64,000 nt of DNA from Sphingopyxis bauzanensis (GTDB lineage Bacteria; Pseudomonadota; Alphaproteobacteria; Sphingomonadales; Sphingomonadaceae), in NCBI RefSeq assembly GCF_002205675.1, contig NZ_NISK01000001.1, forward strand, positions 1,219,303-1,283,302, written 5' to 3'. The position numbers were made by a program, and so were the translations under genes. Position 1 is the first letter of the stretch. Each line of letters opens with the position of its first letter. The notes under the pieces were generated by a model that saw only the letters and a list, made by a program, of their open reading frames with translations, made no database searches and was not told the DNA's origin. Shown in pieces: positions 43,725 to 47,289 of this stretch.

Positions 43725-44375
43725 CTACCAGCGCAGCAACGGCGCCAGCAGCACGCGGCCGGCGACACCCGACAGCGCGACCGCCAGTCCGTGCCAGAGC
43801 CCGATATGAATCATGTCGTTCGACGCGCAGTGTAGCGCGATGATCGTTGCGCCCGCAGCGCCCGCCGCGATACCGATCACCCAGCCCGCGCGCGTCGGCG
43901 ACGTCGGCGCACCGACCTTGAGCCAGGCGAATAGCGCCGCTCCCACCCCCAGCCCCGCGAACACACCCTGTGCGAGGCAGTGCAGACCATTGTCGGGGCG
44001 CGCCGCATCCATCGCAGCGTGACCGTCGCTCAACGCCATCACCACGGCGGAAAAAGGCAGCGCGAGCGCTGCCAGCCCGGCCCAGCGCCACCCGCCATAA
44101 TCGCGGCCGACGCCGGGTAATCCCATCCGCAACGCGCTCCACGCCGCGGCAAAACCCAATGCGACGATCAGCCAGAAGGCAAGCAGCGGCAGCGGCGGCA
44201 TCATCGCGCCATCCGCCAGGTCGTGCCGCGGCCCGGCGAGCCACAACAATGCCGCGGCGCCAACGAGCCAGCCACCCGCCACCCACAGCGATCCGCGCAC
44301 GAGGCGACGCGGTTGCACGGGTTCAAGCTCCCCCGCCAGATCCTCGATCAGATTGTCGATCGATCCATTCGTCAT
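43725..44375 (-). CDS. nrsF: NrsF-type (DUF1109) anti-sigma factor
   Basis: A 216-residue protein with six membrane helices, matching the DUF1109/NrsF family that holds the ECF factor SigF inactive at the inner membrane in Caulobacter. It starts MTNGSIDNLIEDLAGELEPVQ, the cytosolic part, then the helices. Cys in helix-loop segments (NGLHCLAQGVF, ALHCASNDMIH) sit where the two conserved Cys of NrsF are thought to sense metals. ATG at 44375 is one base past the sigF stop, giving a coupled pair. Confidence 0.87.
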   Translation of the reverse strand: MTNGSIDNLIEDLAGELEPVQPRRLVRGSLWVAGGWLVGAAALLWLAGPRHDLADGAMMPPLPLLAFWLIVALGFAAAWSALRMGLPGVGRDYGGWRWAGLAALALPFSAVVMALSDGHAAMDAARPDNGLHCLAQGVFAGLGVGAALFAWLKVGAPTSPTRAGWVIGIAAGAAGATIIALHCASNDMIHIGLWHGLAVALSGVAGRVLLAPLLRW

Positions 44376-44376
44376 T

Positions 44377-44898
44377 TCATTCGCTTTCAATCAACTGCGC
44401 CAGCTTCTTAAGCCCGCGATGGATATTCACCTTCACCAGCGACTCGCTCTGTCCGCAAATCTGAGAGGCTTCGGCGATCGAGGCGCCCTCGATCTTGACC
44501 AACATGATCGCCTGCGCCTGTCCCGCCGGAAGCAGGGTGAGCATGCGGTCGAGGCTGAGGCGCGCGTGGACGACCTCATCCTCAGCCCCGACCGCCGCGT
44601 CGCTCTCGCCCAGTTCGATCTCGTCGCGCTGGCGGCGCAACAGGTCGATCCAGCGATAGCGCGCGATCGCCGCCAGCCAAGGCAGGAACGGCCGGCTGTT
44701 GTCACAGGTCGCAAGCTTGCGGTGCACCGACACTAGCGTCTCCTGCACCAGATCGTCGATCTGATGCGGTGCGATGCGGCGCGCAAAATAGCGCGCCAGC
44801 CATTTACCGCAATCGCCGAGCAAGGCGCGATAGGCCGCGCGGTCGCCGCGCTGCGACGCCGCCATCAACCGCGCCAGCGAGGGTTCGTCGATGCTCAT
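44377..44898 (-). CDS. sigF: SigF-like ECF sigma factor
   Basis: A 173-residue ECF sigma factor: region 2 (QIDDLVQETLVSVHRKL ... PWLAAIARYRWIDLLRR) and region 4 (LTLLPAGQAQAIMLVKIEGASIAEASQICGQSESLVKVNIHRGLKKL). It lacks any extra domain. Neighbouring nrsF identifies the ECF type. It probably drives the bufA promoter at 47264-47289 and so its own operon. ATG at 44898 overlaps the DoxX stop. Confidence 0.92.
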   Translation of the reverse strand: MSIDEPSLARLMAASQRGDRAAYRALLGDCGKWLARYFARRIAPHQIDDLVQETLVSVHRKLATCDNSRPFLPWLAAIARYRWIDLLRRQRDEIELGESDAAVGAEDEVVHARLSLDRMLTLLPAGQAQAIMLVKIEGASIAEASQICGQSESLVKVNIHRGLKKLAQLIESE

Positions 44899-45353
44899 CT
44901 GCGCCGCAGCGTAGCAGCAACGGCATCGAGCGCGAACAGTCCGCCGCCGCGCACGATCAACATCGCCGCCATCGCCGCCCACAACAAATGCACCGGCCAC
45001 CATGCATCGGGGAATACGAAAATCTGAATCACCAGCGTCATTACCAGCAGCCCGCCAGCCGACAATCGCGTCGCGAGGCCGAACAGCAACAACAGCGGAA
45101 AGACATGCTCGGCGTAGGTCGTCAGTGGTACCGCAATTGCCGGGTCCAGTGGCAAGCCCGAAAATTCCGACGCGAACAGATCATATTGAATCGGGTCAAT
45201 CTGCAAGAAACTGCCTTCGACGACCTTCGTGCGCCCCGAGCGCCAGAATATCCCGGCAAGCGCAACGCGCAGGAGGAGCAACGCGATCGATTCACCGACG
45301 CGGCCCGACACCAGCGCGACACCGCGATCGTAAAAGGCAAAAACGCCGTTCAT
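44895..45353 (-). CDS. DoxX-family membrane protein
   Basis: A 152-residue, four-helix DoxX protein (LLLRVALAGIFWRSGRTKVVEGSF, YAEHVFPLLLLFGLATRLSAGGLLVMTLVIQIFVFP). DoxX genes commonly sit in bufferin-type loci; a role in quinone or redox supply at the membrane has been suggested, but is unproven. The gene starts 3 bases after bufC and overlaps sigF by 4. Confidence 0.88.
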   Translation of the reverse strand: MNGVFAFYDRGVALVSGRVGESIALLLLRVALAGIFWRSGRTKVVEGSFLQIDPIQYDLFASEFSGLPLDPAIAVPLTTYAEHVFPLLLLFGLATRLSAGGLLVMTLVIQIFVFPDAWWPVHLLWAAMAAMLIVRGGGLFALDAVAATLRRR

Positions 45354-45356
45354 TTA

Positions 45357-46052
45357 TCAAACCCTTTCGAAAGCCCCGGCGGCGATCAGCGCCGCGATGG
45401 CCGCTCCGCCTTCGGGATGTTCTTCGGCAAGTTGTGCGATAAGGTTACCCAGCGGCGTCATTTCGTCCGCCATCTCTATCGCCGCGGCATCGGCAGGCCC
45501 GACCGCGTGCAGCTGCACCATGGCCTCGGGTCGCACCACCATCAATGCGCCGACGTCGGTCGCAAATGCAGGATCGACCAGCAGCGCAGCGGCATGGGCC
45601 AGCGTCACGACGCGGGTCGCCGGATGGCGCCGGACGCGAAACGCCAGCAGCGCCGCTTCGTCCAACTGCGCCAGGTCGGTCAGCGTCAGAGCCACCGTGT
45701 CGGGCGCGTGATAGCTTTCGAGCCACGCCCATTCGACGCGTGCGAGGTCAGCGGCGCTCGGATCGACGAGCCAGTCGGAAAAACTCTCCCCGATCAGCGC
45801 TAGTGACCGGCCCTGCGCGCCGCCGCCGTCGATGAAGGCGCGCGACAGTCGATTGAACTCGCCTTCGCCCAGATAGTCGCGGGTACGGGGAAAAGTGTCT
45901 TCGAGCGCGACAAGCCGCGCGTGCGAGATGGTGTTGGCATGGACGCGCAGGCCGCGCAGCACCGCAGCGCGGCCGCCCGCGAACAATCCGGTTGGCAGGT
46001 GATCGGGACCGCGAAGCAGCGTCGCGGCGATCGCCGCCTGCCCGTCAAGCAT
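45357..46052 (-). CDS. bufC: DUF2063 (BufC-like) partner of the MNIO enzyme
   Basis: A 231-residue DUF2063 protein: GRAAVLRGLRVHANTISHARLVALEDTFPRTRDYLGE at the N-terminus is the family core, and the C-terminal half (WAWLESYHAPD ... LLAFRVRRHPATRVV) resembles MbnC-like partners that bind the precursor peptide leader for the MNIO enzyme. ATG at 46052 overlaps bufB by 8 bases, so the two proteins are made together. Confidence 0.88.
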   Translation of the reverse strand: MLDGQAAIAATLLRGPDHLPTGLFAGGRAAVLRGLRVHANTISHARLVALEDTFPRTRDYLGEGEFNRLSRAFIDGGGAQGRSLALIGESFSDWLVDPSAADLARVEWAWLESYHAPDTVALTLTDLAQLDEAALLAFRVRRHPATRVVTLAHAAALLVDPAFATDVGALMVVRPEAMVQLHAVGPADAAAIEMADEMTPLGNLIAQLAEEHPEGGAAIAALIAAGAFERV

Positions 46053-46911
46053 CGACTGGCTCGCGCGCCAGTAGCGCGTCGGCCTTGGCTACCTCGGCCA
46101 TCAGCACCGCAAAATCGGGAACATCGCTGTCCCATTCGATCAGCACCGGTTTCGGCCCGGCGTGGCGCCGAAAGGTCGCGAGCAAATCCCAGCAACTGTT
46201 GCGCACCGCTGACCCATGGTCGTCGATTGCGATCGTGCCGCCCATATCGTCGGCCTTGCGGCTGTGCCCCGCGACATGTACCTCGCCGACCAGCGCCGGA
46301 TCGAACCTGTCTAGCCATGGCGCCGGATCAAGCCCAAGGTTGAAGGCCGACACCTCGACATTGTTGATGTCGAGCAGCAGGCCGCAACCGGCGCGGCGGC
46401 ACAGTTGGTGGAGGAAATCGACCTCTTCCCAATCGTCGCCAGCGTAAGCGAGATAGCGCGAGGGATTTTCGATCAGCATCGACCGCCCCAAGCGGTCCTG
46501 CACGCGCCCGACTTCACGCACGAAATGGTCCAGCGCAGCATCGCTGTAAGGAATGGGAAGCAGGTCGGGAAATTTGTCGTCCGGCCCGTTGCTCCAGCTG
46601 AGGTGATCCGACACCATCGCCGGTTCATAACGGTCGCACAACGTCGCCAGCGATTCCAAGTCGCCAGTATCCGCACCGGCCGCCGAACCCAGCGACAATC
46701 CGACCGAATGAAAGCTCAGCGGCACATGTTCCGCAATCGCGGTCAGCCAGCGATGCGGAGGCCCGCCTGCGCCGAAGTAATTTTGGGGATGAACTTCGGC
46801 CCAGGCGGGCGGGGCACCCCGCTCCGCCGCCGCCAGCACGTCGGCATAATGTTCGGGCTTGAGCCCGAAACCGGCGCGCTGCGGCAATTCACGGAGCGGG
46901 CGGGGGGGCAC
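46045..46911 (-). CDS. bufB: DUF692 multinuclear non-heme iron oxidative enzyme (BufB-like)
   Basis: A 288-residue MNIO/MbnB-like TIM-barrel enzyme predicted to modify cysteines of the BufA precursor. Candidate iron ligands are seen in PLSFHSVGLSLG (His), AMVSDHLSW (Asp/His), MLIENPSRYL (Glu), LLLDINNVEVSA (Asp/Asn), VGEVHVAGHS (two His) and VLIEWDSDVPD (Glu/Asp). The start is a GTG at 46911, 5 bases after bufA; no ATG precedes the conserved GFGLKPEHY. In characterised bufferin systems the product carries thiooxazole groups that bind copper; that chemistry here is inferred. Confidence 0.92.
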   Translation of the reverse strand: MPPRPLRELPQRAGFGLKPEHYADVLAAAERGAPPAWAEVHPQNYFGAGGPPHRWLTAIAEHVPLSFHSVGLSLGSAAGADTGDLESLATLCDRYEPAMVSDHLSWSNGPDDKFPDLLPIPYSDAALDHFVREVGRVQDRLGRSMLIENPSRYLAYAGDDWEEVDFLHQLCRRAGCGLLLDINNVEVSAFNLGLDPAPWLDRFDPALVGEVHVAGHSRKADDMGGTIAIDDHGSAVRNSCWDLLATFRRHAGPKPVLIEWDSDVPDFAVLMAEVAKADALLAREPVDA

Positions 46912-46916
46912 TTGGC

Positions 46917-47210
46917 TCAGCTCTTTTTGGCGACCGGCTTGGTGTTGCCCTTATGCGCGGCCAGCGTGCCGCCCATCTTTTCGCAGCTGCCCTTGGTCAC
47001 ATATTTCCAGGCGTTGCCCTGGTAATCGACGGTCGAGGTACCGGCGCAGCTGGTGCCCGGACCGGCGGCGCAATCATTCTTGCCCTTCAGCGATACGCCA
47101 TAGCAGCGCTCCTTGGCACCGTCGGCGGCAACGGCGGGTACGGCGACCGCTCCGGCGGCCATGGCGAGAACCGCCGAGGCGGCGAGCGACAGTTTCAGGC
47201 TGTTTGACAT
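46917..47210 (-). CDS. bufA: DUF2282 (BufA1-like) bufferin precursor peptide
   Basis: A 97-residue DUF2282 protein with a Sec-type signal peptide (cleavage near residues 28-29, [10 protein letters not shown]) and a core with four Cys at 36, 47, 55 and 76. The segment [20 protein letters not shown], then [19 protein letters not shown] and GSCEKMGG, is the bufferin core, where two central Cys are the expected sites modified by BufB/BufC. The C-terminus is Lys-rich. ATG 47210 follows GGGAG. A consensus-like SigF promoter lies 54-79 bases upstream. Confidence 0.92.
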
Positions 47211-47263
47211 ATTGGATACTCCCTTTGAAAACGGACGATGCGGAGGATGGCATCGACAGGAGT

Positions 47264-47289
47264 TTCGGCGGCGCGCACCCAAAGGTTAC
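47264..47289 (-). promoter_or_regulatory. SigF-type ECF promoter for the bufferin operon
   Basis: On the minus strand GTAACC (47284-47289) is followed after exactly 16 bases by CGAA (47264-47267). As I recall it, this is the GTAACC-N16-CGAA motif described for Caulobacter SigF. It lies 54 bases before the bufA ATG, giving a 5' leader of roughly 45 bases. The only annotated sigma factor gene in the same operon is sigF, so positive feedback is likely. Confidence 0.72.

Follow-up and report, generated by a model that had tools for sequence, protein, structure and literature searches.

A conserved SigF-type motif within bufC and a predicted SigF regulon around a Buf1-type bufferin operon of Sphingopyxis bauzanensis

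Six genes on the minus strand of a 64,000-nucleotide stretch of the Sphingopyxis bauzanensis genome (contig NZ_NISK01000001.1; the whole stretch is called the window below) lie head to tail between positions 47210 and 43725, in the order bufA-bufB-bufC-doxX-sigF-nrsF (Table 1). Judged from its sequence, the locus is a Sphingopyxis Buf1-type bufferin operon with its own extracytoplasmic function (ECF) sigma factor of the ECF16 type. It carries two SigF-type promoter motifs, P1 before bufA and P2 within bufC. Comparison of related genomes makes it likely that a promoter of the sigma factor is kept inside the partner gene of a ribosomally synthesised and post-translationally modified peptide across nine genera of Sphingomonadaceae, where it dictates part of BufC (NGT-AAC...GAA), that the SigF/NrsF loop is separable from the bufferin genes, and that a single regulon unites the making of the copper peptide with methionine repair, the reduction of glutathione and the synthesis of ergothioneine.

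Table 1. Genes and promoter motifs of the bufferin operon in the window
Feature	Position	Strand	Match
P1, SigF/ECF16-type motif GTAACC-N16-CGAA	47264..47289	-	exact match, 79 bp upstream of bufA ATG
bufA, Buf1-type precursor, 97 aa	46917..47210	-	DUF2282 (PF10048), Pfam 84.8 bits, cut-off 22.4
bufB, MNIO (DUF692) maturase, GTG start	46045..46911	-	PF05114, 305.8 bits; NCBIfam MNIO_BufB 325.9, cut-off 310
bufC, DUF2063 partner protein	45357..46052	-	PF09836, 44.6 bits, cut-off 27.2
P2, intragenic SigF-type motif in bufC 3' end	45423..45448	-	exact match, 95 bp upstream of doxX ATG
doxX, bufferin-cluster membrane protein	44895..45353	-	PF07681, 60.1 bits
sigF, ECF sigma factor (ECF16-like)	44377..44898	-	Sigma70_r2 and Sigma70_r4_2
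nrsF, anti-sigma factor (DUF1109/NrsF)	43725..44375	-	PF06532, 126.6 bits, cut-off 26.8

The bufferin genes and their sigma factor

The gene content and order named in the original prediction (DUF2282, DUF692 MNIO, DUF2063, DoxX, SigF, NrsF) agree with the family models. Its description of an overlapping run is accurate for bufB/bufC (8 nt of overlap) and doxX/sigF (4 nt), and fails at the other three junctions, where the genes are spaced by 5 nt (bufA/bufB), 3 nt (bufC/doxX) and 1 nt (sigF/nrsF); its span of 44377-47289 ends at the sigF stop codon and leaves out nrsF. The whole genome has one match each to DUF2282, the MNIO family and NrsF.

Three features of a Buf1 cluster are present: a four-cysteine DUF2282 precursor, a BufB-type MNIO and a DUF2063 partner. 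The four core cysteines of BufA noted at the outset (Cys 36, 47, 55 and 76) are invariant in 61/61 aligned rows, seven of which have extra cysteines elsewhere. Membership of BufA2 (bufferin 2) was considered and rejected (NCBIfam BufA2 36.6 bits versus a cut-off of 60; four cysteines versus six in most BufA2). By homology only, Cys47 and Cys55 would be the modified pair of BufA, the central two cysteines of Buf1 being described as modified and the outer two as forming a disulphide (cited passages of PMC12452194). BufA has a hydrophobic segment at residues 9-27 followed by Ala-Val-Ala-Ala, which may belong to a Sec signal peptide. The original prediction spoke of secreted BufA, at odds with the description of bufferins as periplasmic (cited passages of PMC12452194). 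DoxX scores 42.0 with the NCBIfam HvfX family model, below its cut-off of 80.

The sigma and anti-sigma genes show attributes of an ECF16 SigF/NrsF pair: an NrsF/DUF1109 anti-sigma gene adjoining an ECF sigma gene, paired NrsF cysteines, and GTAAC-N16/17-CGAA sites. A SigF match, 51-100% identical, adjoins NrsF in 30/30 family loci, including the locus in the window itself. In NrsF, Cys133 is conserved in 65/68 aligned rows and Cys183 in 67/68; six hydrophobic regions were counted by simple hydropathy with overlapping windows merged by eye, and the narrower NCBIfam NrsF equivalog gives 42.1 and does not reach its cut-off of 300. On the family models, the four invariant cysteines of BufA and the two conserved cysteines of NrsF, the bufferin reading is supported.

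Motifs before bufA and inside bufC, and operon variants

Two sets of related loci were compared. For the first, a BufB relative was found at 33 loci of the genome collection, 24 of which come from records under the name Sphingopyxis, and the window was counted as well. For the second, extended regions were taken from 40 genomes, out of 65 in the Sphingomonadaceae that have NrsF (a phylum-wide search matched NrsF in 93/397 genomes), and these fall into four layouts: bufABC-doxX-sigF-nrsF (11 loci, including L082, which has no bufA match), bufBC divergent from bufA-doxX-sigF-nrsF (14), sigF-nrsF without buf genes in the region (14), and doxX-sigF-nrsF only (1). With one duplicate contig (L064 = L112) counted once, there are 39 distinct operons of the bufABC-doxX-sigF-nrsF layout; their nine genera are the labels of the NrsF search, with the first set other than L064 taken as one genus. 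A group of 30 Sphingopyxis SigF loci, from genomes overlapping the first set, was examined separately.

P1, found at 47289-47264 as the GTAACC-N16-CGAA that the original prediction had placed upstream of bufA, is present upstream of bufA in 29/29 first-set sphingomonad loci, the window counted (25 GTAACC, 4 GTAACT), and lies at -75 to -80 in 28 of them. Because it recurs in all 29 while its spacer sequence varies freely, its placement is evidently not due to chance. The motif is the one published for Caulobacter SigF (cited passages of PMC3511200) and fits the ECF16 consensus (T/C)GTAAC-N17-CGAA (cited passages of PMC8315932), so that the published motif and the conservation of P1 together support assignment to SigF. 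SigF is visible in 28 of these 29 loci; the contig of the other (L056) ends in bufC, before any sigF could be seen. No exact P1 match was found in the remaining five first-set loci (L066-L070), and no sigF was seen there either, in a view limited to the locus (L066 is cut off in bufC). P1 is also present in 9/11 second-set operons of the bufABC-doxX-sigF-nrsF layout. Several observations weigh against the explanation favoured below: P1 is absent in L109, L082 shows neither bufA nor P1, and 4/14 divergent-layout loci have no exact motif facing bufA. Moreover, GTAACY-N16-CGAA occurs 9 times in the 4.26-Mb genome versus 12 times for the reversed control. Genome-wide counting was dropped as evidence for want of any excess over this control, and conservation at orthologous sites was used instead.

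P2 was overlooked in the original prediction. It occurs in bufC of 28 of the 29 P1-bearing first-set loci (in L056 by a scan of the whole locus) and at aligned bufC codons in 10/11 second-set operons of the same layout; in all, exact GTAACY-N16-CGAA stands at aligned bufC codons in 37/39 distinct operons of nine genera. In these 37, the codon before Asn takes the form NGT throughout (GGT, AGT, CGT or TGT, for Gly, Ser, Arg or Cys), and Asn itself is invariably encoded by AAC. Two comparisons were made across 26-27 rows (leaving out L062, L064 and L066-L070). Of the operon's 76 conserved Gly columns, that of P2 alone is invariant for GGT (25 GGT, with one AGT and one CGT row besides); the runner-up reaches a GGT fraction of 0.59, and two other columns are invariant for the common codon GGC. 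Among 2990 dyads of six bases, N16 and four bases in bufB, bufC, doxX, sigF and nrsF of the window, the only one identical in all rows is P2. This test suits a promoter better than windowed synonymous conservation, as it leaves the spacer free.

These patterns might be a by-product of protein conservation, if a required Gly-Asn-Leu...Glu stretch of BufC happened to spell the motif, and Gly202 and Asn203 are indeed conserved in 25/27 and 27/27 Sphingopyxis-type BufC rows. Such an origin is very improbable and largely refuted: residue 202 turns to Ser, Arg or Cys with GT kept; GGT, a minor Gly codon (0.17 in bufC), is yet used by 25/25 Gly codons at P2; and both motif and Asn are absent from 13/13 divergent-layout bufC genes that could be compared (in the fourteenth locus bufC falls outside the contig) and from the five bufC genes of L066-L070, loci without a visible sigF. 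P2 is kept as DNA within the coding sequence, fixing BufC codons NGT-AAC-Y.

The motif also recurs where bufC does not precede sigF. P2 is present in 22/22 Sphingopyxis SigF loci with a BufC match; of the eight without a BufC match upstream of sigF, seven carry the motif 67-126 bp upstream of sigF, and in the eighth (genome G548) it precedes doxX, at a distance of 548 bp from sigF. In the layout without buf genes, an exact motif lies within about 310 bp upstream of sigF in 9/14 loci. On this strong comparative evidence, P2 most likely serves sigF as an intragenic promoter for autoregulation.

A rival reading is that of an ordinary Caulobacter-like bufferin operon with P1 as its single promoter, polycistronic read-through to sigF, and a silent P2. 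The tight packing of the genes is in keeping with it, and P1 alone would be enough for positive feedback. It is nonetheless considered quite unlikely, as a silent P2 would not have survived as DNA in nine genera through changes of the residue that it encodes, loci lacking an upstream bufC often have an intergenic motif before sigF instead, and Caulobacter sigF is raised by copper (cited passages of PMC8224329).

Other observations also count against the favoured explanation. L062 has GTAACC-N17-CGAA in another frame and L118 has its motif elsewhere in bufC; 5/14 loci without buf genes have no exact motif upstream of sigF; and in Caulobacter, where the sigF promoter responds to SigF, its activity is not exclusively SigF-dependent (cited passages of PMC3511200). 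Synonymous conservation measured in windows of nine codons across P2 is not outstanding (best rank 57 of 1109), as is to be expected if only the -35 and -10 elements matter; it adds no independent support.

Variants of the operon were observed in both sets. In the divergent layout (L090, L091, L093, L094, L101, L103, L104, L106, L107, L110, L111, L114, L119, L120), an exact SigF motif faces bufB in 13/14 loci and bufA in 10/14. Two of these loci have a further SigF motif at the doxX 3' end, right before sigF (L101:5397-5422 and L103:5567-5592), as if a sigF-proximal promoter had arisen anew at another place. Tandem Buf1 precursor genes are found in L085, L097 and L118; the N-terminus of one copy contains a lipobox-like LAAC (VAAC in L097), which suggests one soluble and one lipid-anchored bufferin per operon. 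Sphingopyxis solisilvae has a second BufA-like stretch (L054:3044-3274), 64% identical, about 1.1 kb upstream of bufA.

Downstream of nrsF in the window is a DUF2807 gene pair (43663-42896 and 42852-42139). The idea that it extends the operon was rejected: the gap of 61 bp before it contains its own conserved inverted repeat and a promoter-like block, and six relatives with enough flank (L051, L057, L059, L063, L065, L071) have no DUF2807 pair there. In this gap (43724-43664, and the same gap in 18 relatives), the inverted repeat TTTGTGTATTAT...GTAACACACAAAGGAG and its variants overlap the likely ribosome-binding site, looking as if the pair had its own repressor-controlled promoter. The repeat may resemble a GntR/YtrA-type operator.

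The predicted SigF regulon and its inducing signal

Besides P1 and P2, the genome contains seven exact GTAACY-N16-CGAA sites, four of which begin 34-58 bp before a start codon. The genes concerned are msrA (MsrA with an N-terminal extension), a cytochrome b561 gene followed by a molybdopterin oxidoreductase gene (closest NCBIfam model MsrP, below its cut-off, with only the N-terminal part scanned), egtB (EgtB) and gor (glutathione reductase). The other exact motifs of the genome (L005, L075, L077) have no plausible start codon directly downstream and, judged by this position, were put down as presumed chance matches.

Among the best 30 genus matches of each gene, the motif is found at -200 to +60 in 29 (msrA), 28 (cytochrome b561), 26 (egtB) and 26 (gor), and the reversed pattern in 0/30 for each. 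Sixty Sphingopyxis genomes were then divided into 46 with a SigF match and 14 without; two of the 46, G538 and G565, having only a 63-64% relative or a broken piece, were kept apart (motif in 3/6 pairs). Among the orthologues retrieved, at -260 to +100, the motif is present in 157/170 gene-genome pairs with SigF (msrA 41/43, cytochrome b561 39/41, egtB 38/43, gor 39/43) versus 5/38 without (msrA 0/11, cytochrome b561 2/7, egtB 1/8, gor 2/12). Seven of the SigF-less pairs have one changed -35 base near the usual place (msrA in G578 and G582, cytochrome b561 in G582, egtB in G578, and gor in G532, G569 and G582). On a gor tree of 57 genomes, with the two set-aside genomes counted as absent, the presence of SigF changes 11 times by parsimony; the association of SigF with the motifs is therefore not that of a single clade. 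This comparative evidence indicates that SigF probably also drives msrA, the cytochrome b561/molybdo-oxidoreductase pair, egtB and gor.

The strength of the association is tempered by several facts. The genomes, being related, are not independent samples, and four of the 170 pairs belong to the window genome itself, in which the sites were chosen, so that a Fisher value of 1.4e-22 overstates the case. Three SigF-less genomes keep motifs (two each in G578 and G583, one in G582), and G548 has SigF and none of the four outside motifs. On the gor tree, G548 (loci L300, L303, L356, L391, L265) is sister to the SigF-less G563, and may have reacquired the sigF locus after loss of the regulon.

Alternatively, EcfG (GGAAC-N16-CGTT) or some other sigma factor might be the main reader of the outside motifs, and perhaps of P2 as well. 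Work on S. granuli TFA assigns egtB/egtD to the EcfG general stress regulon, which counts against control by SigF, and EcfG promoters vary in the -10 box (cited passages of PMC7083833). In addition, egtB of the SigF-less G578 (L236) has GGAACC instead of GTAACC, matching the EcfG -35 sequence GGAAC; this site may have switched sigma factor. A predominant role for another sigma factor is unlikely, given that the motifs track SigF itself over several lineages in the proportions above. For egtB, dual control by SigF and EcfG may apply.

As the signal to which SigF responds, copper is favoured by the Caulobacter data, and oxidants are the other candidate. The SigF regulon of Caulobacter, sigF included, is copper-induced under all conditions tested and a sigF mutant is copper-sensitive (cited passages of PMC8224329), and Buf1 is reported to be a copper chelator (cited passages of PMC12452194). 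A competing idea, in which the main triggers of the operon are oxidants (hypochlorite, chromate) or a soft metal other than copper and the bufferin serves thiol-chemistry defence and not copper buffering, has a smaller but appreciable chance of being correct. Consistent with it, the predicted SigF targets outside the operon are genes of methionine repair and thiol metabolism, another ECF16 system is HOCl-responsive (cited passages of PMC8315932), Caulobacter SigF responds to chromate and cadmium (cited passages of PMC3511200), and 9 of the 46 SigF-carrying Sphingopyxis genomes have no BufB match. Conversely, BufB at 60% identity or more occurs in 0/14 SigF-less genomes, three of which have a 43-45% match.

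The proposed circuit and its relation to known systems

The favoured explanation as a whole, which is held to be highly probable, is an ECF16-run Buf1 operon with both P1 and P2, the bufferin being one arm of a methionine-repair and thiol-defence response. BufA would be exported to the periplasm, and two of its cysteines would, by homology, be turned by BufBC into copper-binding thiooxazoles. By analogy with Caulobacter, NrsF would tether SigF to the membrane and let it go once a metal or oxidant that reacts with thiols attacks the two conserved cysteines. Free SigF would then start transcription of the whole operon at P1, coupling the bufferin to the SigF response, and separately start at P2 a transcript of doxX-sigF-nrsF only. 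The sigma/anti-sigma pair would thus not depend only on read-through from bufA, and SigF could raise its own level and that of NrsF without the long bufABC transcript. The positive feedback proposed in the original prediction is retained as a prediction, in the sharper form that sigF lies downstream of two SigF motifs, one of them within bufC.

P2 predicts the exact point at which a bufferin operon's sigma factor receives an input of its own, and makes the feedback wiring accessible through silent codon changes that leave BufC intact. It would be a clear example of a protein sequence shaped by a promoter, for which the divergent-layout operons are natural controls. The outside targets place bufferins in a wider SigF response (MsrA, the MsrP-like pair, Gor and EgtB), and the persistence of SigF in the nine Sphingopyxis genomes without a BufB match bears on the nature of its signal (copper, oxidants or damage to thiols).

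Arrangements of this kind were already known, which corrects the original prediction: bufferin operons under SigF control are described in Caulobacter (PMC3511200), where the regulon is copper-induced (PMC8224329), and sigma and NrsF genes are listed in Buf1 clusters (PMC12452194). Relative to the cited passages of these papers, the core association of bufferin and SigF is already published, and P2 and the wider regulon are new. Among the matches listed for open-licence articles in PMC, whose titles and abstract starts were covered, none describes an intragenic bufC promoter, regulation of sphingomonad bufferins or this regulon.

The closest known system, according to passages of PMC3511200, is that of Caulobacter CC3254-CC3257 with sigF-nrsF (CC3253-CC3252), which has the same gene set, the same GTAACC-N16-CGAA motif, a SigF-responsive sigF promoter and two conserved NrsF cysteines (C131/C181, to which Cys133/Cys183 probably correspond, by spacing and not by alignment). 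In Caulobacter, sigF-nrsF is a separate transcription unit beside the bufferin operon, whereas in Sphingopyxis it is the tail of the same operon, with its proximal motif inside bufC. The eight genes listed for Caulobacter SigF in those passages include the MsrP-type CC2748, but not msrA, egtB or gor.

The Buf1 clusters of Antoine et al. 2025 (PMC12452194) are of the same type, with sigma and NrsF genes. The passages cited contain no analysis of promoters, and refer to preliminary analyses for a strict bufABC order, whereas bufA is divergent from bufBC in 14/40 sphingomonad loci. Captophorins, copper-associated thiooxazole peptides, are a proposed class that takes in bufferins (cited passages of PMC12668002). 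ECF16 sigma/DUF1109 anti-sigma systems (BcrS/AbcS and others; cited passages of PMC8315932) share the common motif, autoregulation and Msr genes in the regulon. Unlike the systems described there, the predicted Sphingopyxis regulon brings Msr-type repair together with gor, egtB and a bufferin operon.

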